This document shows, in pieces, positions 13,509-30,100 of a DNA stretch of 64,000 nucleotides (positions within the stretch are counted from its first letter, which is position 1; each line of letters begins with the position of its first letter). The stretch is taken from contig OX442316.1 of assembly GCA_949358305.1 (NCBI GenBank), forward strand, positions 9,362,001 through 9,426,000. The letters are read 5' to 3'. The stretch is from Strigamia acuminata. Lineage: Eukaryota; Arthropoda; Chilopoda; Geophilomorpha; Linotaeniidae. A model generated the notes under the pieces. It searched no databases, was not told the origin of the DNA, and worked only from the letters and a program-made list of their open reading frames with translations. Both the position numbers and the translations under genes were made by a program.

Positions 13509-15536
13509 TCACCGCAGAAAATAAAAAGCACTCATTAAAAATAATAAAATAAAAGTTATTAATAACGTTTCTTGATAATACTCTGGGCCTTTTGCTTCTA
13601 TTAGTCGCGTAAATATTGCCTGGACAGCTTCTCTAGCCTTTAAATTTGGATTGCTCCAAATTTCACTTTTAGCACACTTTTCTAAAAACTTTATCTTAAA
13701 CTCTTTGATGTCTTGCGCATCGAACAAACACCACATAAGATTTTTCTCCACAGCCCTCCAGTTACTATCCTCAGCATAATCAAAAAACAAATCGACCCGA
13801 CGCTTTAGGTTTCGTTTCATGTCCTCTTCTGATGTTAGCGACTTACTCAAGACGTCCTTCAGTGCGTCCCAGTCATCAGTGGCCACAAAATCCATACACA
13901 ATTTGCACCCCTCTTGAGAAGTGATAAAAAATCGATTAAATTCACGAATTTGCTGGGGAGTGGGAAGACTCCATGTTAATAATGTTTCAATGGCTTCCCA
14001 TTTTCCTCTGTGAATCAAACTCGCGACAGTCTTGAGTCCGTCGTACGAAAACATGAATTGGGATTTCCAACATTTCGAAAACTCATCCGACGGTGGCAAA
14101 CAATTGTCTACGAGTTCCTGGATGAAATCCAACTTTTGAATTACGATCAATTGCTGAATTGAAGAGTACAACTTGAACATCGCTTCTGTTTTTCTTCGAC
14201 TTAAAGTGGTATCTCCTTCGTCAGGTAGGATCAAATTCTCGGCTGTTGGTGAGTCCCACGGCATAATCCCGCATAACTTTTCCAAACCGTCGTTGGTTCC
14301 TGCGTGCATTTGCAATGCCCATTGAGATACCGTCGTGTTATTCCATATCTGTAGGAAGATTTCCCTGTAATCTTTTTTTGTCGCCGTTCTAAGCTGTTCG
14401 ACCATATTTCCAAAGTGGATTTGGCACATTTCGACCGTAAGAAACACCCATTTCTCCGTCACGGTGTCCAAGAAAAACCATTGCAGCGGCCATTCCAAGA
14501 AGCAAGTCGGTGGTCGAAAACTGACAGTGTTCTTGGTCTCGTATTTCAGCTCCATTTTATTAATTCTCTGCCGAATGTTGGCCAACGAGAAGAGAAACTG
14601 GACAAATCCTCCATATTTAAAGCCAAGGTTCGTCCATGGTTCATTACCGATGGCCGCTTGTATCGCATAATTGAGCAAGACATCCATTAGGTTATCCTGA
14701 GGACACATGATGACCTTTTGACAAAAACACTTGGTGTCCAATATTTTCACCACCTTTTTATTGGCGCCGGACGGTACCATAGGGCCGAGGTGTTTCGGTT
14801 TCGACAGAGATACAATTCTAGACTTTTCCTCCGAAACAGTCGACGTGTCCACTGAATACCGCTCTGTGTCTGTTGGAATGGACTCGGTCACATCGTCGTC
14901 CGGGAATTCAACTTTAGCCTCCGACGTTATTGAAGGTGGCTGCGAAGCAACGCTCGATGGCGAAACACTGCTCAATTCGAAAGAACTTACATTTTTGTTT
15001 TTTAGAAACTCCAACCAGTAGTTGGCCAATGGATACTTGAAAGCAGTTTCCTTGTCTATGCACAAAGATCCCGACAGTTTGAGTTGCTTCCATAAAGAAA
15101 GTATATGCTGCTCGAAACAGTAAATGCAGGCCAAAACAAACCTCTTGCTCACTTCCACTTCGTCAAATTCGAGTATTAATTCAGCAGTGGCTCTGTTATC
15201 TATGTTTCCTTCAGGCAACCAGCACAAATTTGGCGAGAATGCGACAGCCGCTTCGACAGAATTGAAGAATTCGTAATGTCCCTTAATCCAAGCCAAAAGT
15301 GAGTCACCGACCGGTTTAACTAGAGCTTGAATTTTATTTTTAGATTCTGCATTTAGAGTCGACAAGTCGATTACTTTCATTTTCACTGCGTTGATAAGCT
15401 GAGGAGGCATAGTCTTGTATTGTAGTAAATCTGTCTTGGTTAATCTTTTTATCATAGCAGCAGACGTCCACAGCTTGGCAGCCAACCGAACAACCGAGCA
15501 CTCTTGAAGAGACACGTGAAAGGTTGAAGGTGACAT
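13509..15536 (-). CDS. Unrecognised 675-aa protein, intronless, C-terminal membrane anchor
   Basis: One uninterrupted frame of 675 residues. The first ~190 residues are closely related to the neighbouring gene at 15905-17140 (shared ESK.KIQALVKPVGDS, GNIDNRATAELILEFDEVEV versus GTIDNRATAEIMLEFDEINY, and DKETAFKYPLANYWLEFL). The middle is Ser/Glu-rich and presumably disordered. The C-terminal half holds at least three similar helical units (WEAIETLLTWSLPTPQQI, WDALKDVLSKSLTSEEDM, WRAVEKNLMWCLFDAQDI). The last ~20 residues (LLITFILLFLMSAFYFLR) form one hydrophobic segment with no signal peptide, which suggests a tail-anchored protein facing the cytosol. I do not recognise the family. Absence of introns beside intron-rich genes may mean a retrocopy origin. 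Confidence 0.8.
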   Translation of the reverse strand: MSPSTFHVSLQECSVVRLAAKLWTSAAMIKRLTKTDLLQYKTMPPQLINAVKMKVIDLSTLNAESKNKIQALVKPVGDSLLAWIKGHYEFFNSVEAAVAFSPNLCWLPEGNIDNRATAELILEFDEVEVSKRFVLACIYCFEQHILSLWKQLKLSGSLCIDKETAFKYPLANYWLEFLKNKNVSSFELSSVSPSSVASQPPSITSEAKVEFPDDDVTESIPTDTERYSVDTSTVSEEKSRIVSLSKPKHLGPMVPSGANKKVVKILDTKCFCQKVIMCPQDNLMDVLLNYAIQAAIGNEPWTNLGFKYGGFVQFLFSLANIRQRINKMELKYETKNTVSFRPPTCFLEWPLQWFFLDTVTEKWVFLTVEMCQIHFGNMVEQLRTATKKDYREIFLQIWNNTTVSQWALQMHAGTNDGLEKLCGIMPWDSPTAENLILPDEGDTTLSRRKTEAMFKLYSSIQQLIVIQKLDFIQELVDNCLPPSDEFSKCWKSQFMFSYDGLKTVASLIHRGKWEAIETLLTWSLPTPQQIREFNRFFITSQEGCKLCMDFVATDDWDALKDVLSKSLTSEEDMKRNLKRRVDLFFDYAEDSNWRAVEKNLMWCLFDAQDIKEFKIKFLEKCAKSEIWSNPNLKAREAVQAIFTRLIEAKGPEYYQETLLITFILLFLMSAFYFLR

Positions 15537-15904
15537 AATTTTTTTTTGTTTCTTTATTATTTTACGCTTAAAATTTTTAAAAACTCAAAACGAGAAGCTA
15601 AAATTCCTAAGGCTTGATCTTTTGTTTAATTTACTCGCTTGTAATTTTCATTTTAACAATGGCAGCAAAGCTTTCACTTTACAACAATGGATTATCGTGA
15701 TTATTTGACCATGGCCTCATTCCCGAGGTACAACTTGACAAGTGAGAGAAAATTTCATTAGCACACAATTACGTATAATATCAACACGTTTATTTATGAA
15801 ACATTTTCCTTTTTGTATATTTTTTTCTTTTTACAATTATGAAAACGAAGCGTTTATTACAGAGCACTGAAATGACAAACTATTTGAAATTTCCATCAAT
15901 TGTG
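15537..15904. other. Short intergenic region
   Basis: Promoter side of the 675-residue gene and 3' flank of its paralogue; nothing else supported. Confidence 0.5.
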
Positions 15905-17140
15905 TTAATAAACATTCCTAGTTGGACAGCAATTTATGTAGGACAAAAACCCGTCGTCTCTCTTAGTTTTCAATAGTTTTACCTTCTGCGGCTGGAATGA
16001 TATCATTTACAATTTAAAAAACAAAAATTATAACTTTGATTAAAAGTAGTAATTAATTAATACCTTGGCTCCCTTACTCGTTTTGTCAAAACCAAATTCG
16101 AGAAAATTGATAACGTCATCTTCACATAACTAATCAAAAATATAACACATAATTTCAATATTTTGGACCTTACAATTCATCCTGACCTTTTCTCTTTCCA
16201 TATTCGATCTTTGAACTATAGTTTGCACTGCATTTAAAAGAAAACTCAACTCGTAAACTCATAAACTAATGCGAATACTCACATTTAGCTTTGGACCTTC
16301 TGTCTAATAATGTAGGACATACGATGCAACAACTACTGGTACTCGTGATTTCCATTATCGGAATATTCTTTTTTCTATGCTACGAATGATGAATATGAAA
16401 GAAATATTTCAAATTTAAGTACCAATGAAACGTTTAAAATCGATTTTACTAACACCACAGTGTTCAGACTTGACAGTATAATCGTCATCATTCACTGACT
16501 CCCAAATGTAATCATCACCATCTTCTGCCTCCTCTATCAATGGTCTCGTAGAACTTTTCTCACTTTTCAGTGACACCGAATCAATCTGTTCTGTCGTCTT
16601 ATGGTTCAAAAACTCCAACCAATAATTGGCTAGTGGATACTTGAAAGCGGTCTCTTTATCGATGGTAATTTTTCCAGCCATTTTCAGCTGTTTCCAGAAA
16701 ACAACGATGTGTTGTTCAAAGCAATAAATGCACGCCAAGATAAACCGCTTCATGTAATTAATTTCATCAAACTCGAGCATTATTTCTGCAGTTGCTCTGT
16801 TATCAATTGTGCCATCCGGACACCAACGAAGATTGGGGCAAAAGTTTACAGCCTCTTCTAGAGAATGAAAAAAGTCTGCATGTCCTTTTAACCAATGAAA
16901 TATTGAGTCACCGACGGGTTTTACTAAAGCTTGAATTTTCTTCTTTGATTCAGCAGTTAGTGCATTCAAGTCCATAATTTTTAGGAGAATTGCATTGTAC
17001 AAATTGGTAGGCATTCCTTTGCTCTTTCTTAGATTAATTTTAACTAATCTTTTCATCATGGAAACCGATGTCCATAATTTCGCAACAACGCGAACAACTG
17101 ACGTTTCCTGAAGACGTACGTGGTAAGTTGAAGAATACAT
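15905..17140 (-). CDS. Paralogue of the 675-aa protein with a different, spliced C-terminus
   Basis: The long first exon starts MYSSTYHVRLQETSVVRVVAKL and matches the N-terminal ~190 residues of the 13509-15536 protein. Read straight through it stops at 16415 (241 aa). Downstream lie four exons that join cleanly: 16283-16379, 16187-16227, 16064-16129 and 15905-15991. A phase-0 donor at 16453 (GGT|GTTAGT) links the long exon to them, giving 325 residues ending GFLSYINCCPTRNVY. Alternatively those exons are a separate 88-residue gene starting MEITSTSSCC at 16355. Either way the repeat-bearing C-terminal half and membrane anchor of the paralogue are missing. Function unknown. Exon joining is my inference. 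Confidence 0.6.
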
Positions 17141-17606
17141 CCTTTTCGTTTACTCTTGACAATTTTAAAAGAATTAAAAAATAATGGCAGATACAAATTT
17201 GATGACAAATTGGGTGAATATGTTATAACAAAGACAACACACTGGAATAAGTGCATTAATAATGGCAGTGCATCAAACAATAACACGCTTACTGCTCTAA
17301 CTAAACTATGGGCACAGCAGCAAAGCATAGGGGCAGTAAAAAACAAAATAAAATGGTCATGCCAGTTTTGTATAAATAAATAAGTGATGCAATCTGAAAA
17401 GATCTTGTCTAAAAAATAACTAGAACGAAATATTAATAAAACTATTATTTATTTTGAAAATATTGTACATTAGGATCAGAATATATCACTACGACAATGA
17501 AATACGAAATGTGTCATTGTGTGTTTGTGTACATTTGTTGCACTTGTTTGAAAAAATGCAAATGCAGTTGGTAAAAATGAAGAAGTGCGAGTACGATTCG
17601 TACAAA
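17141..17606. other. Intergenic region with a stray open frame
   Basis: On the plus strand 17156-17383 is open for 75 codons and reads like protein (NNGRYKFDDKLGEYVITK) but starts only at TTG and has no recognised relatives. It may be a decayed gene or element fragment. Confidence 0.3.
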
Positions 17607-19142: not shown

Positions 19143-20824
19143 TTTCTTTTCTGTATAGAAAGGAAGACCGTATCGGGCTTTAATTTGACAATAAAAAAAG
19201 AAAATCATTTATATTTATGCTAGTATCTAGATAAGCATGACTAAGCTTATTTCGTATTCACACATATCCTGTAATGAATAATGTTTTCTATGTGACATCA
19301 TAAAGTATACAAATTTCGGACAAAAATTCAGATAGGAGTGAAATTATATTGTATAAGCGTAGTATTCATGACATTGACTCATAGAAAAGAAATGTGTACG
19401 CAAAGGTTAACATTTCCTTCCAGGTAAATTACGCAATAGCTGTGTCGTTCAAACCAGTTTTAATCTGGATTAGTTCTCGGATAACTACTTACCGTGTTTT
19501 CCTATGATGTGTTTAAGAATAAGGCTATGACGGAATATGGCACGCAAATTCTCTTGCCAGCCTTCACAAGTATAATGAAGAGAAGGTCAGTGGCTTAAGG
19601 AAGAATTCAAAGTTTAAGTGAAACCTTGGAATTTCCTGCTCACCTTGACAGTGTTATTTTGTATACACAGCGTCCAAGATCCGGTCTTATATAGTAGTAT
19701 TACAAAATATTTATTAACACATTCTTATCGTATCACGTAATTACGTGATTTATGCTGGACTTCATTTAAGCAAATATATTATATTGACCTTTTCTTATGA
19801 GTGAAAAAAATTAAACTTTTATTTACTTAGAAAAGGTAAAACATCGTAATATATATACCCTAGGGCTAGGCTACTTCATCTACTGGTATTAACCAAATTG
19901 CAATACTATAATAGAAATTTTAAATTGTATATTTTCTACCATGTACGTATATTTATTTTGGCAACAACGAAATCTAAGTAAACAATTAAAAGAAAAAGAA
20001 AAAAAGATTTCCGGTATGGCTAAATATTCATAGAAACTTCCTCTTATTATGAAGGATAAAATGTTTGTGCCCGTTGATAAGCATACAAATTGCTGTACAG
20101 ACATTATTAATATTTATTACCATAATAGATGTGTTTTATGTCGTAAGCACTAAACGGAATTTACCACACTTGCCTGGTGTTAAAAAATGATGATAAGCTC
20201 TGTTCTGAAATAAAATTTATAATTCTAAATAAATTTTGTTATAAAAATAAATAAAACTCTCTCCTGTCAAACTATGTTTATTATTTGTGTTTTAATTGGC
20301 ACACAAGCAAGTACTGCATCCTGGATCACCAAAATTATATCTTAAAAAGGAAATAATGTAAAATAACTAAATAAGAAAATATTTACAAGTTGAAATAATA
20401 AAATGACTCATTTTATTTTGTTGGAGTGTAACAGGTGTCGATTTACCACACACATTCTTTAACTTAAACCCTTGCTTGGATTTTCATCACCTCTTTTTGA
20501 CCCACATTCCAAAAAAAGGGGTGTAAACTAAAAAGGGGTGTTGATTAAATGGATTAAAAGTATCACAGGATTGGTCTGGACTGCATAAGATAATCCAAAT
20601 CTTTTCCAGATGCTGTTGTGTGATACAAATCCTTGCAGAGCTGAAAATAGACAGTCTAACACCAACCACACCATCGACTCGTATCAACGCCTCACCGATC
20701 AAGTCCCTGTATTTTCACATACCGGAGTGACCGAGGCAGATTAAAGTCGAGAAAAAACAGTTGTTAGAAACCCCCAAACCATTTGAAAGAGTGGAATATT
20801 GTTTCCAAGTAATGCTAATAGTAC
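19143..20824. other. Serpin upstream region, no gene seen
   Basis: About 1.7 kb of AT-rich intergenic sequence. Open frames here are short and lack coding character. Confidence 0.5.
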
Positions 20825-21015: not shown

Positions 21016-21502
21016 TTTGAGTTGAATTTAAAAGGCCAGTGGTCCTACTGTTTCGATTAATTTCAATAACAGGCCAGTGGTCATACACTACGGTACACTT
21101 TCAATTAATTCACCCAAGACAACTTACAAGCCAGAATAGAAGTCTAATTAGTTGTAATAATTGAATTTTCCAATTCTATCATAATTTAGCATTTTCCCGT
21201 GTCTGCCATTACGGATTCAAGACCAGTTTTATATTTTATATTAAAATAATTCAACTTGTGATTATTTCCTTAATCCTTAAATTTTCAGGTATCAAGGTAA
21301 ACCACGATTTACTCTAATTCTCAAGTCGAGCACGACAAGTCCTGTACAAGTAAAACGTAACAATTATAAGCATCGAGCATAAACAATAAACATATTTTTC
21401 TAAATTGTCACTTTTTATTTAATTTCTGGCCCTAAAATGTCAGCCGAAGACTTAAATTTAGAATAGAGTATGAGTTTCTAGACAGCTATTTCCCCACATA
21501 GA
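21016..21502. other. Intergenic, promoter side of the SDR gene
   Basis: No coding feature seen; it should hold the SDR promoter and 5' UTR. Confidence 0.4.
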
Positions 21503-23097
21503 ATGGCTGCAAATAAATTAGCAGTAGCGGCAGGTGTCATAACCGCAGCAATCTTTGGCGTCATAGCTTACAAGTAAATAATAGTATAGCAAGTAGAAGT
21601 ACTAATTTCACTTATTTAAATCAGTTTTTTTTTGTGCAATGCAAACACTAGAGATTCTACAGCTGCAACGTATAAAGGCATCGAACGACTAGATGGCCAC
21701 ACGGTTATAATTACAGGCGCAAATTCTGGAATAGGAAAAGCCACCGCTTTGGACCTAGCAAAAAGGGGGGCAAAAATTTTCATGGCTTGTCGTAATCTTG
21801 AAAAATGCGAAATAGCTCGTCAAGAAATAATAAATGCGACACACAATGAAAGAATTTTTTGCCGAGAATGCAATTTGGCATCAATGAAATCCATAAAGCA
21901 ATTCACGCATAAAATTAACAGAGGTTAAACGAGTTATACATACAGTATAAACGTAAATTAGGATATTTTTATTTAAAACCACTATTGTTCTGTAGAAGAG
22001 CATGCCTTGCACATTTTGGTCAACAACGCAGCAGTAATGGGCACTCCTGAATACACGCAGACAAAAGATGGACTCGAGTTACACTTCGGAGTTAATTATC
22101 TTGGTCATTTTGTGCTCACTAATTTGCTTCTTGATAAATTGAAAGCAACTGGTCCTGCTCGCGTAATTATGCTCGCTTGCCCGCAACATACGCAAGGGAC
22201 TATCAATTTTGAAGATTTAAATGGAGAGGATAAATACGATCCAGTCGCAGCTTATAATCAAAGCAAACTGGCTTGCGTAGTATTCGCAAGACAATTGGCC
22301 AAAAAATTAAAAGGTATTTGAGAAGAATTTTAAAGGTCTGAATATATTGTAGGGTTTTTCAGATTACTGCGTGACTGTTAACTCTGCATCGCCTGGATAT
22401 TCGTACACTGAACTCAACAGGCACAAAGTCTACAGAACAAATCACGTGTTGAATCATTTCGCACACCCTGCAATGCTGGTTTTGCTTAAATCTCCATCAC
22501 AAGGAGCACAAACCGTTCTTCACTGTGCTCTGCACCCACAATTGAAGAAAACTAGTGGCAAATATTTCGAGTAAATTAATTCGAGTGTTTTTTTAAAAAT
22601 TTGTTTTTAATTTATTCAATTGTTTTTAAATATTTTTATTTTTGTGCAGTAATTGCGTACAGATCGAACCATCAGCTGACGGTATTGATGATGAGATTGG
22701 AGAGCAATTGTGGGAGGTCAGTGAGAAATTGATGGAACCAATAATTCCGATTAAAAAGAAGCACATCCTTCATGGGAAGAAATCTAAGCACTCAAAAGTA
22801 GACAAACCTGAGAAAATAGAAAAAACTGAAAAGCCAGATGAGACTGAAAAGCCAGAAGAAGCGGAGAAACCAGAAAAAAGTGAGAAAAAAGGGAAAAATG
22901 GGAAAGCTGAAAAAGCTGAGAAAAAAAGCAAAAATGGAAAACCAGAAAAAGCTGAGAAATCACCCGAGAAATCATCCGAGAAACCAGCAAAACCAGATAA
23001 ACCAGGAAAACCCGAGAAACCAGATAATCCTGAGCAACCGGAAACTCCCGACAAATCAAAAAAGACGGAGAAATCAGAAAAATCCCAAAAGACTTAA
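21503..23097 (+). CDS. Membrane-anchored short-chain dehydrogenase (RDH-like) with charged repeat tail
   Basis: Five exons (21503-21573, 21652-21923, 21996-22313, 22363-22570, 22650-23097) encode 438 residues. An N-terminal hydrophobic anchor ([18 protein letters not shown]) precedes a classical SDR fold: cofactor loop [34 protein letters not shown] and active site YNQSK. Overall it resembles retinol dehydrogenases 11-14, which reduce or oxidise retinoids and other lipids at the ER using NADP(H). Two oddities: the usual catalytic Ser position (VSS in relatives) reads LAC, i.e. Cys, and the last ~115 residues are a Lys/Glu/Pro repeat tail ([20 protein letters not shown]-like) not found in typical RDHs. 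A polyadenylation signal lies near 23450. Substrate unknown. Confidence 0.88.
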
Positions 23098-24187
23098 GAG
23101 CTGGAAGAGACTAATTTTGTCAAGTGCCATAACATTGCTAAAAACCTTATTGTTTCCATTTCAAGATTACTTTTTTCAAATTTTTAGTTGACAGATCTTT
23201 GATTTCCAATACGTCGCTTCAATCTCTGTGCATTATTAACTATTAAAGCATACGAGAGTTGAAATACAATTAAGGCTGAAACACACGATCTATAAAAGAT
23301 TGTTCGTATAATTCTTACTGGTATTATTACAAATGTGACAAATGAAAAATAACATTTCAAGATTTTGCTTCATTTTAACATTAAACTGTGCAATTTGCAA
23401 GAGTTGTCTAAATTATGTATAAATGTAACAGTTCTTCATTTTTTTTTTAAATAAAAAAGTGTATATAACCTTGCAGAAATACCAATTTAATGGTTAGATA
23501 AAATTAGATAAAATTGATTAAAATAGCACAACGGGGTCCAACAGAAAAGTCCCGTGTTCAAAGGTTATTTCAACATTTTGTTACTAGAAGACGCTTAAGT
23601 CTCGCCACACCCTGATGCTCTGAACCACGATCAAGACCTCGACCCACCAGCTGCGGTCGCGTCAAGTAACATGACGTGGCATACCAACATGTAGGTGTGA
23701 CTGGTGAGACTGAGATGTGATAAGCAGTTTTTTATTCGCGACTAAATTCATCTTAACACCTTAAGAAATAGGTAGTACAATACATGTGTTTCAAATAGTT
23801 ACCGTAGTATGTAATGAAATACGAGTTAACTTCAATGAGATGAGATGTCATCATCTCATTATAAAGTTTAAAGCCTGGCTAGTTTCGGTTTAAACATAAT
23901 GCATGATAACTCCTAAATTATTTGCGTCAATGATTCAGCTTTTAATAAAAGGGGTCCCATTTGAACACAGCCGATTCATTGATGCGAGAAACACGACAAT
24001 TTAAAATAAATGATGACTAGAAAATAAAATAACTGATCAGTCTCAAGCCATCTTGAATTATTATTTACGGTACTGGACTAGTAATACCCATAAGTAAATA
24101 AACTATACTTGCTTGTTTTATTATATTGGTTTCGTTGTTTTTGCTAGATATCATGACGTTTGTAGCTTTTTAAGCCGTTTTAGAATC
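23098..24187. other. Intergenic between SDR and tandem STING
   Basis: Contains the SDR 3' UTR and, near its right end, the promoter of the STING-like gene. No other gene seen. Confidence 0.5.
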
Positions 24188-26182
24188 ATGGATATGGATT
24201 CAGAGGTTTCTACCATAAAATAATAAAAACAAAGCATTGTAACCATTAAACTTGGTTTGTTTTAGGATTTTTTAGAATGTCTCGGTTTTGTGACGGCATT
24301 TGGTTATTATTTGTATCTTAAAGATGGGCCTTTCCAAGGTATTAAATATTTCTTAAAAAATTATGTTAATAGCCTTTAATGCAAGTAAAACTATTTTGTT
24401 ATTACTCAAAGAGTTACGTCGAAGACTGAAAGATTTTGAAGATTCCCACGATATACGGATCGAACCTAAATTTAAAAAAGTTCTCATATTGGTCCCCGAT
24501 GCGTCATCTTATTGTGATATAGAAAAATTTAAAGAGTTAGAAGTCTTAAAAAACCTGAAAACCATTAGGAAGGATACGGCAGGAACTCAGGAGAGGCCGT
24601 ATCGGTTAACAGTATACAAATATAAATTGTTGGAAACTGAAACAGTAAGAAAAATAAATATTACATTGTATACATCAATATGTAAGCTTGAAAACAATTT
24701 CTAATTACTTTGATCGACTTCTTATTCCTACGCTAGCATTGCTTAATCGAAATGGCACAATGTTTGGACTGCCTCCAAAGAATACGACTACGCAATCAAC
24801 CACTAAAGAAAGAACAGAAAACGCGTGTGATCGATCAATTTCTAAACATTCTTTGTTATCTTTTAAACGATAAAGAATGTGAAAGATTGTATCAAGTCCT
24901 AAGATTTTCAGGTACAGGTTCAGCAATTATTTAAATATACAAATCTTTTTCAAACAAGTCTTTTCAGAAGGTGCCACGTTTGCTGATGTCTTGAACCGAA
25001 CAGTTTCTGTATCAAAAGTTAAAAGGGTCTCAACAAATAATTTGGGCAAAAGTTTGGCATATTGGTTCCATTACAATTACCTTCTGCTCATGAAACCAGG
25101 TGAACAGTAACATATTACACGTTAAATTATTCCTAATTTTTTTAAAAATTGTTTTTCTAGAACTTCCAGACCAGATGGAACGGTGGCAAAAACTTGAAAG
25201 ATTCCAACTAGTAAAGAGAGTCTATTTATTGGTTCCAAGTTCATGTTATTGCCCTGATGAAATTATGAACATTGATGATGATGATGAAAAAATCGAGTAC
25301 GCCAAAGACTTAAATAATAACAGTAAAGCACCACCAATCACAGTTGGGGCAAGTTATAAACGAGAGTACAAAAAATGTGTGTTACGTATTAGAAGTGAAA
25401 AACGTGATACAAAGGCAAGATATTATTTTATAAAATCATTATTTAATTCTATCTAAATTTTAAATTTTTATTACCAGCCTGACATTTACTGCATCGCAGA
25501 ATTCGCATCTCCGATAAAACAAATGTATCGCATGTACAAGAACTACGCAAATCAGATGACAGAGGTGGAAGAAACGAAAACTGAAATGGTGAAACAAAAG
25601 CATCAGTTTGTATTGGCTTTAAACAAATTAATAGAGACAGAGGATCTTTATAAAGTTATTGCGTACACTGGTAAGTTGATTGTAAAATGCAGTGGTTCTC
25701 AAACTGTGCTCTGCGAGGCGCGTCGTTGAATTACCATCATAATTATTCCTATACTGTAACCAACACATGCAATCAGTGAGCCACTGTGGCTGTGCATAAA
25801 TTTTTACACGTGTAAATGGTTCCGGGCCCAAAAAAGTTTGATAACCACTGGTGTATATTGATCTCTAAACGCAATGTTTTAAGTTTGAATTCTTTACTAA
25901 TTCAGATGACAAATCATGCAACTCTCTAGCTTACAGCATGCAATCAAATCAATGCAATCATGCAATCAATGAAATCATGCAATCAATGCAATCATGCAAT
26001 CAGTGAGCCAATGTGGCTGTGCATAAATTTTTACACGTGTAAATGGTGCAGGGTCCAAAAAAGTTTGATAACCACTGGTATACATTGATCTCTAAACGCA
26101 ATGGTTTAAGTTTGAATTCTTTATCAATTCAGATCACAAAAACGTGAAACTCTCTAGCTTACTGCTGCAAAAAGTAAAGTAA
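24188..26182 (+). CDS. Sting: Tandem STING ligand-binding-domain protein, no transmembrane region
   Basis: Eight exons (24188-24205, 24266-24338, 24412-24644, 24737-24911, 24968-25099, 25161-25414, 25478-25670, 26133-26182) give 375 residues. Residues ~7-166 and ~180-375 are two copies of the STING cyclic-dinucleotide-binding domain. Copy 2 has LAYWFHYNYLLLMKP, VKRVYLLVPSSCYCPDE, YKREYKKCVLRI and IYCIAEFASPIKQMYRMY; copy 1 has FKKVLILVPDASSYCD, QERPYRLTVYKYKLLE and HCLIEMAQCLDCLQRI. The Arg-x-Tyr and Glu positions that contact ligand in animal STING (R238, Y240, E260 in human) are kept in both; T263 is Ser in copy 2 and Gln in copy 1. Both copies share intron positions and phases (1, 0, 1). 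The usual four transmembrane helices are absent. Intron 6 is GC-AG. A missed upstream exon cannot be excluded. Confidence 0.82.
25690..25850. mobile_element. hAT-like MITE in the last STING intron
   Basis: Ends are inverted: CAGTGGTTCTCAAACTGTGC at the left and, from the right end, CAGTGGTTATCAAACTTTTT. This terminal sequence is typical of hAT elements. At 161 bp it has no coding capacity. An 8-bp target duplication is not clear. Confidence 0.7.
25766..26162 (+). repeat. 170-bp tandem duplication spanning the STING terminal exon
   Basis: 25766-25934 and 25993-26162 are near-identical, from CATGCAATCAGTGAGCCA through the right end of the hAT-like MITE, the acceptor, and ACTCTCTAGCTTAC of the last exon. 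Between them are short CAATCATGCAATCAATG-type repeats. The first copy has a small length difference in the coding part, so its frame ends differently; the second copy gives the better C-terminus (DHKNVKLSSLLLQKVK). Confidence 0.8.
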
Positions 26183-27125
26183 AGAAACATCTGATGCTGT
26201 TCTACAATTTATATTCATTTAACATTTTCTCGTCAGTAATCAAAAAAATTATTTAAATTTTTTTATATTTCTATCATATATATTCCATTTGTATAACCAT
26301 ATACGATATTTTAATATGTACTAACATTACAAAAAATGTAAACGTCCACAAACCATGGCTCAAATTGTGTTTTATATTATTATCAGATATAATTTAAGCC
26401 ATGGCAGAAGAGCATTTACATTTTTTGAGTAGAATTATTATTAAACAAGCAAATCAACCTAAAAAAGTGTACTGGCCTGACAAATTTTCAATACTGCTTT
26501 AAGACTTTGTAACCAAACATTAAAACAAACGGACACAATTTTCTTGTGTCCGTAATTAAAATAAACACAATAAAATAACTTTACCTACCTTCAAAGAGCA
26601 ACCTAAGTCTTTTCTTTTTTTACTCTCGATTTTAAACCCATTTCATTTCCTGGTACATGGTTCAAAATGATATCTTTTCCGGGAATTCCCCAGTCAGAAC
26701 AAAACGCATGACTTGACCAGTTTTTTGCTCACACGTCCGCACGGACATGAATGCCGTAATCTTTAGAATCTCAACCTGGTGGTGATGGATAATGAAATAA
26801 TTCTTTCAAATTTCAACCACAGGCCCCACGTAAGGCCAAAGTCGAATCCACTCTCATATTAGCTGCCCACATCTGCCACTGGAGGATTTTATTACGTGTA
26901 ATTGGGGTAGCTAAGCTAACCCGGAACTCGGCCACTAAGCTTAACGCATTTTTTGCACCAAAATGATGTCAATCACCAAGTAAATAGAGATATTTTATAA
27001 AAAAAATTAAATTTTAATACAATAACTTCACCTAACACAATAAATTAATTGTAAAAATTATTTTTATGACAGAAAAAGTCTTCGTCCTTTCCACTGAGGA
27101 GCTGGAATCAGTTAATCAGTATAAC
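26183..27125. other. Intergenic with a hairpin repeat
   Basis: Holds the STING-gene 3' UTR (AATAAA-like sites near 26570) and the hairpin at 26330-26427. No gene seen. Confidence 0.5.
26330..26427. repeat. ~98-bp imperfect hairpin (possible MITE)
   Basis: Arms begin with a perfect 13-bp inverted repeat, CAAAAAATGTAAA at 26330-26342 and its complement at 26415-26427. A second matching block CCATGGCT..AAATT lies further in. It could be a small foldback MITE or a stable RNA hairpin. Confidence 0.55.
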
Positions 27126-30100
27126 TTAGCAATGAGAATATGATTGTAAATTGCGGAATTGATCATTACCAATACCGATTTCAATATGAGTGTGTACAAG
27201 ACGATTTTGAGTATTTGAATTTGATCCTATTTTTTGATTTCCGTCGCTCGTTGAAATCGACTTGGATAAGGCTATGGCATGTTTTCTTAATTGAGCTAGT
27301 GATGGATTGCGTATGAGAGTATACGCAACCAACCAACGATTCCGGGCTCTCTTCTTTTTCGCAAAATAACCAGGATCTATTAAATTTTAATTCAAATTCA
27401 TAATAAATAATAATCCTAACTATAGTGGGTTGCTTACTGCAATGGTACTCTTCGTAATCATATGATCTCCAAATTGCATTATCTAATTCGGTGTAATGTG
27501 ATTTAGCTAGTATATCTATAAAACATCTGACAATAGGATTCGATTGCATAGCTTCTAAATACAACAAACATCTATACGATTTGTAACCTGTAGAGAAACA
27601 TATTTTTAACACTATATCTGATGAAATGTCTCGAGCGTTTTACCTTCATCTCTGCTTTCAAACTCTTGTGGTAGCACACATCTATCTAGTCTAGGCACAA
27701 GATAAATACCAATCACCATACCAATTAAAATCCTCTTCAAACAAGAGAACACGCCAGTAAATATATTATAAAAAAATACTATGTACATCATTATAAAAAA
27801 TCCTTTTCTTAAAGTTGAAAAGAAAAATAAAAGAAAATAATTCACACGCTTATTAATTACTCATTATTCAGTATACCTGTTGTCTAATGCCATTGTTTTT
27901 CCATAATCCATCAAAAAAACATGTTTGATTAATAGAAATTGTATCCCTCTGCTTAAAATGAGAACAGCTAAAATCGGTCTAGAAAAACAGACGATTTCCA
28001 CTTTCAGTACCACAATCAATAAACAAATTATCTTAGAACACAACACAATAAACCTAGTATTGCGTTCTTGGTTTCATTATACCCAATCCAATCTAACAGC
28101 CATAATAAAAAAGGTCCTAAGGCATGTATTATTGGCAGTAACAGTAGTTCTCCTCCAATAATTAATGTGAATGACAGAACAAAAAACTGAATTAAAAATC
28201 CTAGAAAAATTTCATTTCTGTGAATCTGCTCAAATTATTTTACACTTTCCATTTTTATTACCCCACATTAGATATGCCACTTGATAGCCTGTGAACTGGA
28301 TTGCATACAACTGAAATAATCATCAACAAAGTATTGAATCAATTTATAGCAAAATGTAACATCCTAGTGTCTTACCACAATGTCTGTATTCGACACTGTC
28401 GCGTAATCTAGCGAGTAATCGACATGTTTTTTCCGGTAAATATCCAGCACATTTTTCCTGTAGGCCATTAACATGTGACAAACAGTGATAGCATTCATTA
28501 AATATGCTATAATAAGTGCAAGTAATGCCCCAACTAAAATAAAGAGAAATAAAAAACATTTAAACATTTGATTGGATACGGATGTTGAACTGGGGGAAAA
28601 TTAGTCTACCATAAAGAATTAGGTTTCCACTTTTCCATAAAGAAAATTCTGATATTTGTTCAATCTCGTTGCCGACTTGTTTATTCCTCTTTGATTGGAC
28701 TAATATTAGAAGTGCCATTTTAATAACTTAAAAATAAAATTGAAATTATTCCATATGCTCAGTAAAGTAGTTCAGTAAAGTATATTTTTACAATTCGGTA
28801 CGTAGGTATCCATTTCCTTTTCCTTTTCTTCGAGTTCATTGCTGAATTGGATAAAATTTTCTGTGCAGGTGTACATAAACTCAGCAGCTAACTGTATATT
28901 GATAAAAAAAATTAATTACAATCACCAATTGATTTCTCACGATAAATCTTTACTACTTACTTTCGTTATTATGAGGAATCCAACCGTACAGCTGATTAAA
29001 ATAGTCAAGGAATAACGAAACCCTGCAACAGAGGTATTACTAACTTAATTATACATAATTATTATTTCGGATAGCTACCGTGAACATTGTGATATATGTT
29101 ATTCCTAAACCAAACAATAAATTTCGATGTATTTTGTTCCGTCTCTTTCTTGTGCTGAGATATTAATGCTTCATAGCTAACAAATGTTTTTAAAAAGTTT
29201 AATCATTTCTGTTTAATTAACTATGACAGTAATTACTTACTCTTTTTTATAAAGCAGTAAATTTTTAATATATTTCAACTGAGAGAGAAAAAGAAAATCA
29301 GAATTCAGAATGTGTTAAATAAAAACGTGACTGAAAATTACTTGACTCGCTGACATTCTGTCAACATCATCCAAGCCAAAGAAAATTAATATAACAATTC
29401 GTTTTGCGAACCAATATACTATATAGGAACCAGCAAACGGAATAACAAGGACCCTTAAAGCTAATTCACCGACTAGGTTTTTCTGTACGGAGAGAAAAAA
29501 TGTAAATATAAAAAATAAATACAGTCGACTTATTCAATTTTAATCTTACCATTGACACAGTTGGTCCAGGTATGCTCTGCACTACGACATTGATAACATA
29601 TAAAGATGTATATACAAATCCAACCAAACAACTTGACACTGACCCCATGTGTATACAACTTAGCATGGGAAGAAAAATCAAAGACACAAGTGCAGTCAGT
29701 ACTAATTTAATTGAGACTGAAATTCAATGAAGAAAAAATTTGTTAAATATTTCTTTAAATTATCGTATAATTAAAATGTTACCTTGAATATAATTTGGTT
29801 GTCCTTCTGTGTATTTTGAAGTTGCTAACATACTTATAATTTCTATAGTGGCTAATGCAAATACAGATACTACAGCTTTTCTCTTTTTTCTCCCTTCCAA
29901 GAAATTTACAGGACTAAACACGAAAGAAAATCAAAAAAGAAAATGTGTTTATTGTAAGATGAGGACACAGGGTAAATATAAATAAAATATGTAATATCTA
30001 GAAATTTTAGACTGCACACAAGTTCTATTGCTACGTAAAATTTTACATATTTAATAAAAATTCTTAGGGTGTAACAAGCACATTTACTGATTTGGGTCTG

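Follow-up and report, generated by a model that had tools for sequence, protein, structure and literature searches.

Animal STING has four N-terminal membrane helices and works as a dimer with one ligand-binding domain (LBD) per chain. The helices are generally regarded as necessary for trafficking and oligomerisation, and the pocket as requiring two identical chains. Proteins with a double STING LBD may exist in other invertebrates. The architectures named in the passages of the literature available to us are TM-STING, TIR-STING and fungal PNP-STING (PMC10732462, PMC12424679, PMC8204762, PMC9980059, PMC8592570, PMC10855445). STING is described as sparse in arthropods in the available part of one of these papers (PMC10732462), and the genome paper on Strigamia maritima does not use the term STING in its main text (PMC4244043). 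In Drosophila, FADD is placed between the STING dimers of the activated oligomer, without need of a C-terminal tail, in the excerpt of a study based on a structural model, mutants and immunoprecipitation (PMC13144350).

The locus described here lies in a window of 64,000 nucleotides from the centipede Strigamia acuminata (contig OX442316.1). Its predicted product shares with the TM-STING of Drosophila, Nematostella and human a common LBD, by profile and sequence, and the Tyr-Arg-Tyr-Glu core of the pocket; cGAS-like loci occur in the centipede genome too. In contrast to TM-STING, which has one LBD per chain, the centipede protein has two, with exon 5 common to both. Furthermore, the positions of Arg232 and Thr263 are changed, the model has no C-terminal tail, and none of the four N-terminal helices of canonical TM-STING was found in the interval 23098-24187 or by the STING_TM profile. 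TIR-STING, from bacteria and oyster, likewise has the STING LBD outside the plan of four helices and one LBD, whereas the centipede protein has no TIR match and the partner of its LBD is another LBD. Fungal PNP-STING also lacks TM helices and has its STING domain in a non-standard architecture; as far as the available text goes, it is a nucleoside phosphorylase fusion and branches closer to bacterial STING, whereas the centipede protein matches animal STING (PMC12424679).

Phrase searches of the partly available literature found no tandem STING; this was a narrow check, and an earlier description is possible. The phrase "two STING domains" occurs in the accessible text of two bacterial STING papers, in neither case for a tandem protein (PMC8748872, PMC12421889), and the accessible part of an insect STING review mentions no tandem form (PMC9127187). 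Of the 2,102 candidates from a homologue search in a set of 5.8 billion proteins, none had an E of 1 or below; this has little bearing on novelty, as the set seems to be poor in animal proteins. Half 2 gave no match to viral contigs.

Gene model and domain content

The gene at 24188-26182 (forward strand) was rebuilt from splice sites as eight exons and seven introns, with 1128 nt including the stop codon (Table 1). The predicted protein has 375 amino acids and no internal stop. Six of the seven introns have GT-AG boundaries, and the remaining one is GC-AG. Six introns are 56-92 nt long, and the final one is 462 nt. The mean GC content of the introns is 30.1%, as against 36.0% in the coding exons; the final intron, at 37%, is exon-like. 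Upstream of the initial Met, the frame is open back to 24098 without another Met. A tandem duplication of 148 nt (25766-26140, forward strand; 93% identity) gives rise to two candidates for the last exon. The more distal exon is preferred because its peptide shares the KVK ending of the domain 1 tail.

Table 1. Exons and selected features of the STING-type gene (window coordinates)
Feature	Position	Strand	Basis or remark
Coding exon 1 (MDMDSE)	24188..24205	+	18 nt; starts with the first ATG in frame
Exon 2, helix alpha-1 of LBD1	24266..24338	+	Alignment to STING alpha-1; register uncertain
Exon 3, LBD1 core and lid (ERPY, Arg92)	24412..24644	+	Profile match, alignment
Exon 4, LBD1 IEMA (Glu113) and C-terminal helices	24737..24911	+	Profile match, alignment
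Exon 5, LBD1 tail, short linker and LBD2 alpha-1	24968..25099	+	PDB and profile matches
Exon 6, LBD2 core and lid (KREY, Arg278)	25161..25414	+	Profile match, alignment
GC-AG intron	25415..25477	+	Splice-site model
Exon 7, LBD2 AEFA (Glu303) and C-terminal helices	25478..25670	+	Profile match, alignment
Exon 8, preferred last exon (DHKNVKLSSLLLQKVK stop)	26133..26182	+	KVK end like LBD1 tail in exon 5 (by eye)
Alternative last exon	25906..26006	+	Start in the first copy of the 148-nt tandem duplication

Each of exons 2-7 has one open frame, and all three frames are open in the 18-nt exon 1. In composition-preserving shuffles, the model frame of exons 3-7 stayed open with a probability of 0.0006 to 0.04; for exon 2 the value was 0.19, and for exon 1 it was 0.51. 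The window contains no N bases. An intact gene model predicted to encode two STING LBDs is confirmed. The GC-AG intron is the kind of feature that a decayed gene or an annotation artefact might show, but this explanation is very improbable, as the frame of 1,128 nt is intact, the splice sites are consistent, the frames of exons 3-7 seldom survive shuffling, no N interrupts the window and both halves keep the core pocket residues.

Several neighbouring features were noted. A short-chain dehydrogenase gene is located upstream (22630-23097, forward strand), apparently ending in a long Lys/Glu/Pro-rich repeat tail as judged by eye. An exon near the STING gene (27612-27860, reverse strand) matches RBP_receptor (STRA6-like), with more exons seemingly on both sides. 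Two open frames on the reverse strand, of 691 amino acids (13509-15584) and 244 amino acids (16415-17149), look alike by eye and have no Pfam match at E up to 0.01.

The Pfam profile STING_LBD (PF15009) matched the whole protein in two stretches with 126.7 bits (E 8.7e-37). The separate scores were 54.9 bits for half 1 and 80.9 bits for half 2, both above the curated cut-off of 27 bits. Half 1 is the weaker match and, even with its tail, is covered only to profile position 160 of 182. No TIR domain was found: apart from STING_LBD, the only Pfam profile to match the full protein at E up to 1 was UCR_hinge, with 14.5 bits and thus short of its cut-off. The best PDB sequence match of half 2 was the STING chain 8ydn (E 2.7e-16). 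That of half 1 was the STING chain 5cfp, which we take to be Nematostella STING, with E 2.3e-4 without the tail and 9.1e-7 with the start of exon 5; with the tail, 5cfl and 5cfo were matched too. The improvement brought by the tail shows exon 5 to open with the end of LBD1 (FSEGATFADVLNR compared with FSPDRDLADVMLR). The profile match of LBD2 begins at residue 191, and the second part of exon 5 corresponds to its helix alpha-1. The linker comprises the eight residues that separate the end of one matched stretch, at 182, from the start of the next, at 191. This means that the two domains are joined in a single exon, since exon 5 encodes both the tail of LBD1 and the start of LBD2. On this ground, which is the strongest evidence, two adjacent genes were ruled out. 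The fusion of two STING LBDs in one protein, as claimed in the preliminary description, is thus borne out by the two Pfam stretches, the PDB matches and the shared exon, and the motifs listed there (the core strand, ERPY and KREY, IEMA and AEFA) are all present as described.

Ligand pocket and probable internal duplication

The equivalents of Tyr167, Arg238, Tyr240 and Glu260 are found in both halves in a four-sequence alignment; these positions follow human STING numbering and are presumably the known ligand contacts. The Arg238 equivalents are Arg92 in half 1 and Arg278 in half 2, and those of Glu260 are Glu113 and Glu303. At position 167 of half 1, Tyr is also found in the other alignment register (HMMER). 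The position of Arg232, like Thr263 a further ligand contact, is changed in both halves, to Thr in half 1 and to Val in half 2. The difference between Gln and Ser after the ligand-site Glu, reported previously from the sequence, was located at the Thr263 position (Gln in half 1, Ser in half 2). In helix alpha-1, the positions of Ser162 and Tyr163 are occupied by Trp and Phe in half 2. The register of this helix in half 1 differs between alignments: the residues are Val and Thr in the four-sequence alignment, and Gly and Tyr in the HMMER register.

The core of the pocket is kept. Because Arg232 and Thr263 are replaced, the protein may have a different ligand or affinity, or a half-site that no longer works. 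In addition, the asymmetry of the half-sites may be wider than Gln versus Ser, since the Arg232 position and the alpha-1 contacts differ too.

The two halves show 26% identity over 133 columns (E 0.001), and the order of intron phases in each half is 1, 0, 1. The third intron falls in the same column in both halves. The first splits an equivalent Glu codon when four sequences are aligned and is 4 residues off in the two-sequence alignment; for the second, the offset is 3 or 1 residues, depending on the alignment. Therefore, of the statement that the introns lie at the same places and phases in both halves, the phases and their order hold, whereas the positions are approximate and not all identical. 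The internal tandem duplication proposed together with it is backed by the repeated 1-0-1 phases and the homologous halves. An origin of the LBD pair by duplication within the gene is supported by these comparisons.

Search for other STING genes and candidate pathway partners in the genome

The genome searched comprises 237,517,015 bases in 157 contigs (237.5 Mb). The STING searches were exon-wise, and an absence holds at that sensitivity and in this assembly. The STING_LBD profile gave two matches at E up to 0.001. When E was allowed to reach 10, exon 7 was added as a third, and outside the gene no match was obtained in the whole assembly. When the halves were used as queries, four of five matches for one and all three for the other were their own exons. 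A match on contig C5 (E 2.74) is a Lys/Asp-rich stretch without STING features and was taken as chance. The STING_TM profile, which may have little power to detect a myriapod STING spread over separate exons, gave nothing over its cut-off genome-wide. Its four matches at E up to 10 were all on contig C1, each with a stop, and these were also taken as chance. A separate canonical TM-STING, for which a search had been suggested, was found with none of STING_LBD, STING_TM and the two halves. With these profiles and queries, no STING-type gene besides the one described here was found in the assembly.

The Mab-21 family search gave five loci, one on contig C11 and four on contig C3. The C11 gene is Mab-21-like and lacks the GS motif. 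All four C3 loci (three within about 60 kb at C3:32133750-32192692, and one at C3:34136947) have GSY, EFD and DVD (DVDLVPV) motifs, as read in raw frames whose matches contain stops, possibly from introns. We take GSY, EFD and DVD together to be the cGAS-like catalytic pattern. Mab-21_C gave six matches, and each of the five loci has them a short distance downstream of its Mab-21 matches. In addition, genome profile searches found six RHD matches on three contigs and one DED domain match. Since cGAS-like loci, RHD and DED matches are present, a source of cyclic dinucleotides and an NF-kB-type output in this genome are plausible.

It should be mentioned that the assembly also includes a mitochondrial contig (C157) of 15,068 bases, the genes of which were named from translations with code 5. 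Their order is cox1-cox2-cox3-nad6-nad2, then nad5-nad4-nad4L on the opposite strand, atp6-cob-nad3 on the first strand and nad1 on the opposite one. According to the available part of its description, the mitochondrion of S. maritima has the same order from cox1 to cob, atp8 aside, an order called unique among the animals compared; at 14,938 bases it differs in length from the present one, and its base composition is somewhat different (PMC4368715). The gene order of the contig points to Strigamia or some other geophilomorph centipede.

Membrane segments and possible mode of action

No TM-like 19-mer was found in the 375-residue protein (best mean hydropathy 0.85). The intergenic space that follows the upstream gene's stop and precedes the start codon (23098-24187) contains no splice-reachable TM segment, in agreement with the soluble protein of the preliminary description. 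The sole TM-like open segment there (24105-24161) has neither an in-frame acceptor nor an ATG. This single segment compares with a mean of 2.4 (sd 1.7) in 126 segments of the same length from both strands of the window. Of the outcomes named beforehand as speaking against the fusion, namely two separate genes or upstream exons adding the four helices, none was seen, although splice-reachable TM-like segments do exist beyond the neighbouring gene (20089-20145 and 21228-21284). The same scan found such segments within the upstream gene and downstream at 26853-26909. TM-like segments are frequent in this AT-rich window, and they were not assigned to the STING gene.

The preferred reading, to which we give nearly an even chance on the sequence evidence, is that this is a remodelled centipede STING, with its LBD doubled by intragenic duplication and its membrane helices lost, giving a soluble single-chain receptor with intramolecular pairing of its LBDs. 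The two domains probably form an intramolecular pseudo-dimer, which is the simplest reading of two LBDs per chain, and they would pair like the two chains of the ordinary STING dimer. The pair might then bind one cyclic dinucleotide, supplied by the cGAS-like receptors of the genome, in an asymmetric pocket. Upon ligand binding, the protein would oligomerise and signal from the cytosol via LBD surfaces, for example through a FADD/caspase/Relish arm. FADD could dock on a soluble LBD pair through the surfaces that it would contact in fly STING.

It is unlikely, though the least so of the alternatives, that the protein is a soluble sponge or inhibitor, which would bind cyclic dinucleotides without signalling and so damp or store the messenger. 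Such a role would suit a model without a membrane segment or C-terminal tail, and two LBDs on one chain could retain ligand with no need of trafficking. No second STING_LBD gene was found as a target of inhibition, however, and the cGAS-like loci with catalytic motifs persist. As the only STING found in the genome, the protein is more likely to be a receptor than a sponge, and a mere decoy for a second STING is disfavoured.

A little less likely again is a membrane STING with an extra LBD, the TM exons of which were missed or lie further upstream, past the dehydrogenase gene. In its favour, the frame is open between 24098 and the Met at 24188, where a pyrimidine-rich sequence resembling an acceptor ends at 24147 and the frame continues downstream of it; the SRFRIM peptide has, by eye, a loose likeness to SRVM in the connector of 8ydn, and the two distant TM-like segments mentioned above have both acceptor and donor. 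However, the nearer segment at 24105-24161 lacks an in-frame acceptor or ATG, TM-like segments in this space fall below the control mean, and all STING_TM matches in the genome are below the cut-off. When the 13 residues upstream were included, the LBD score was no higher (55.3 versus 55.7 bits; the profile does not cover the connector). Furthermore, distant TM exons would need to enclose the same-strand gene ending at 23097. Assembly between chains, with LBD1 pairing with LBD1 and LBD2 with LBD2 to give chains or filaments with two pocket types, seems quite unlikely when set beside the intramolecular pairing preferred above. The short linker and the divergence of the halves would fit it, and filament formation is reported for bacterial TIR-STING in the available part of one study (PMC8204762).

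It is possible, and this is put more tentatively than the preferred reading itself, that the only STING of this lineage is a soluble, single-chain and asymmetric pseudo-dimer. Sensing and signalling would then be membrane-free, and a heterodimer-like pocket could read asymmetric messengers. If this is true, a natural, membrane-free and single-chain sole STING would test the need for the helices and for identical chains. Its half-sites could be mutated separately, and it would offer a ready-made single-chain sensor of cyclic dinucleotides. It would also fill a gap in the arthropod STING record. This animal may sense immune cyclic nucleotides by a design unlike that of textbook STING.
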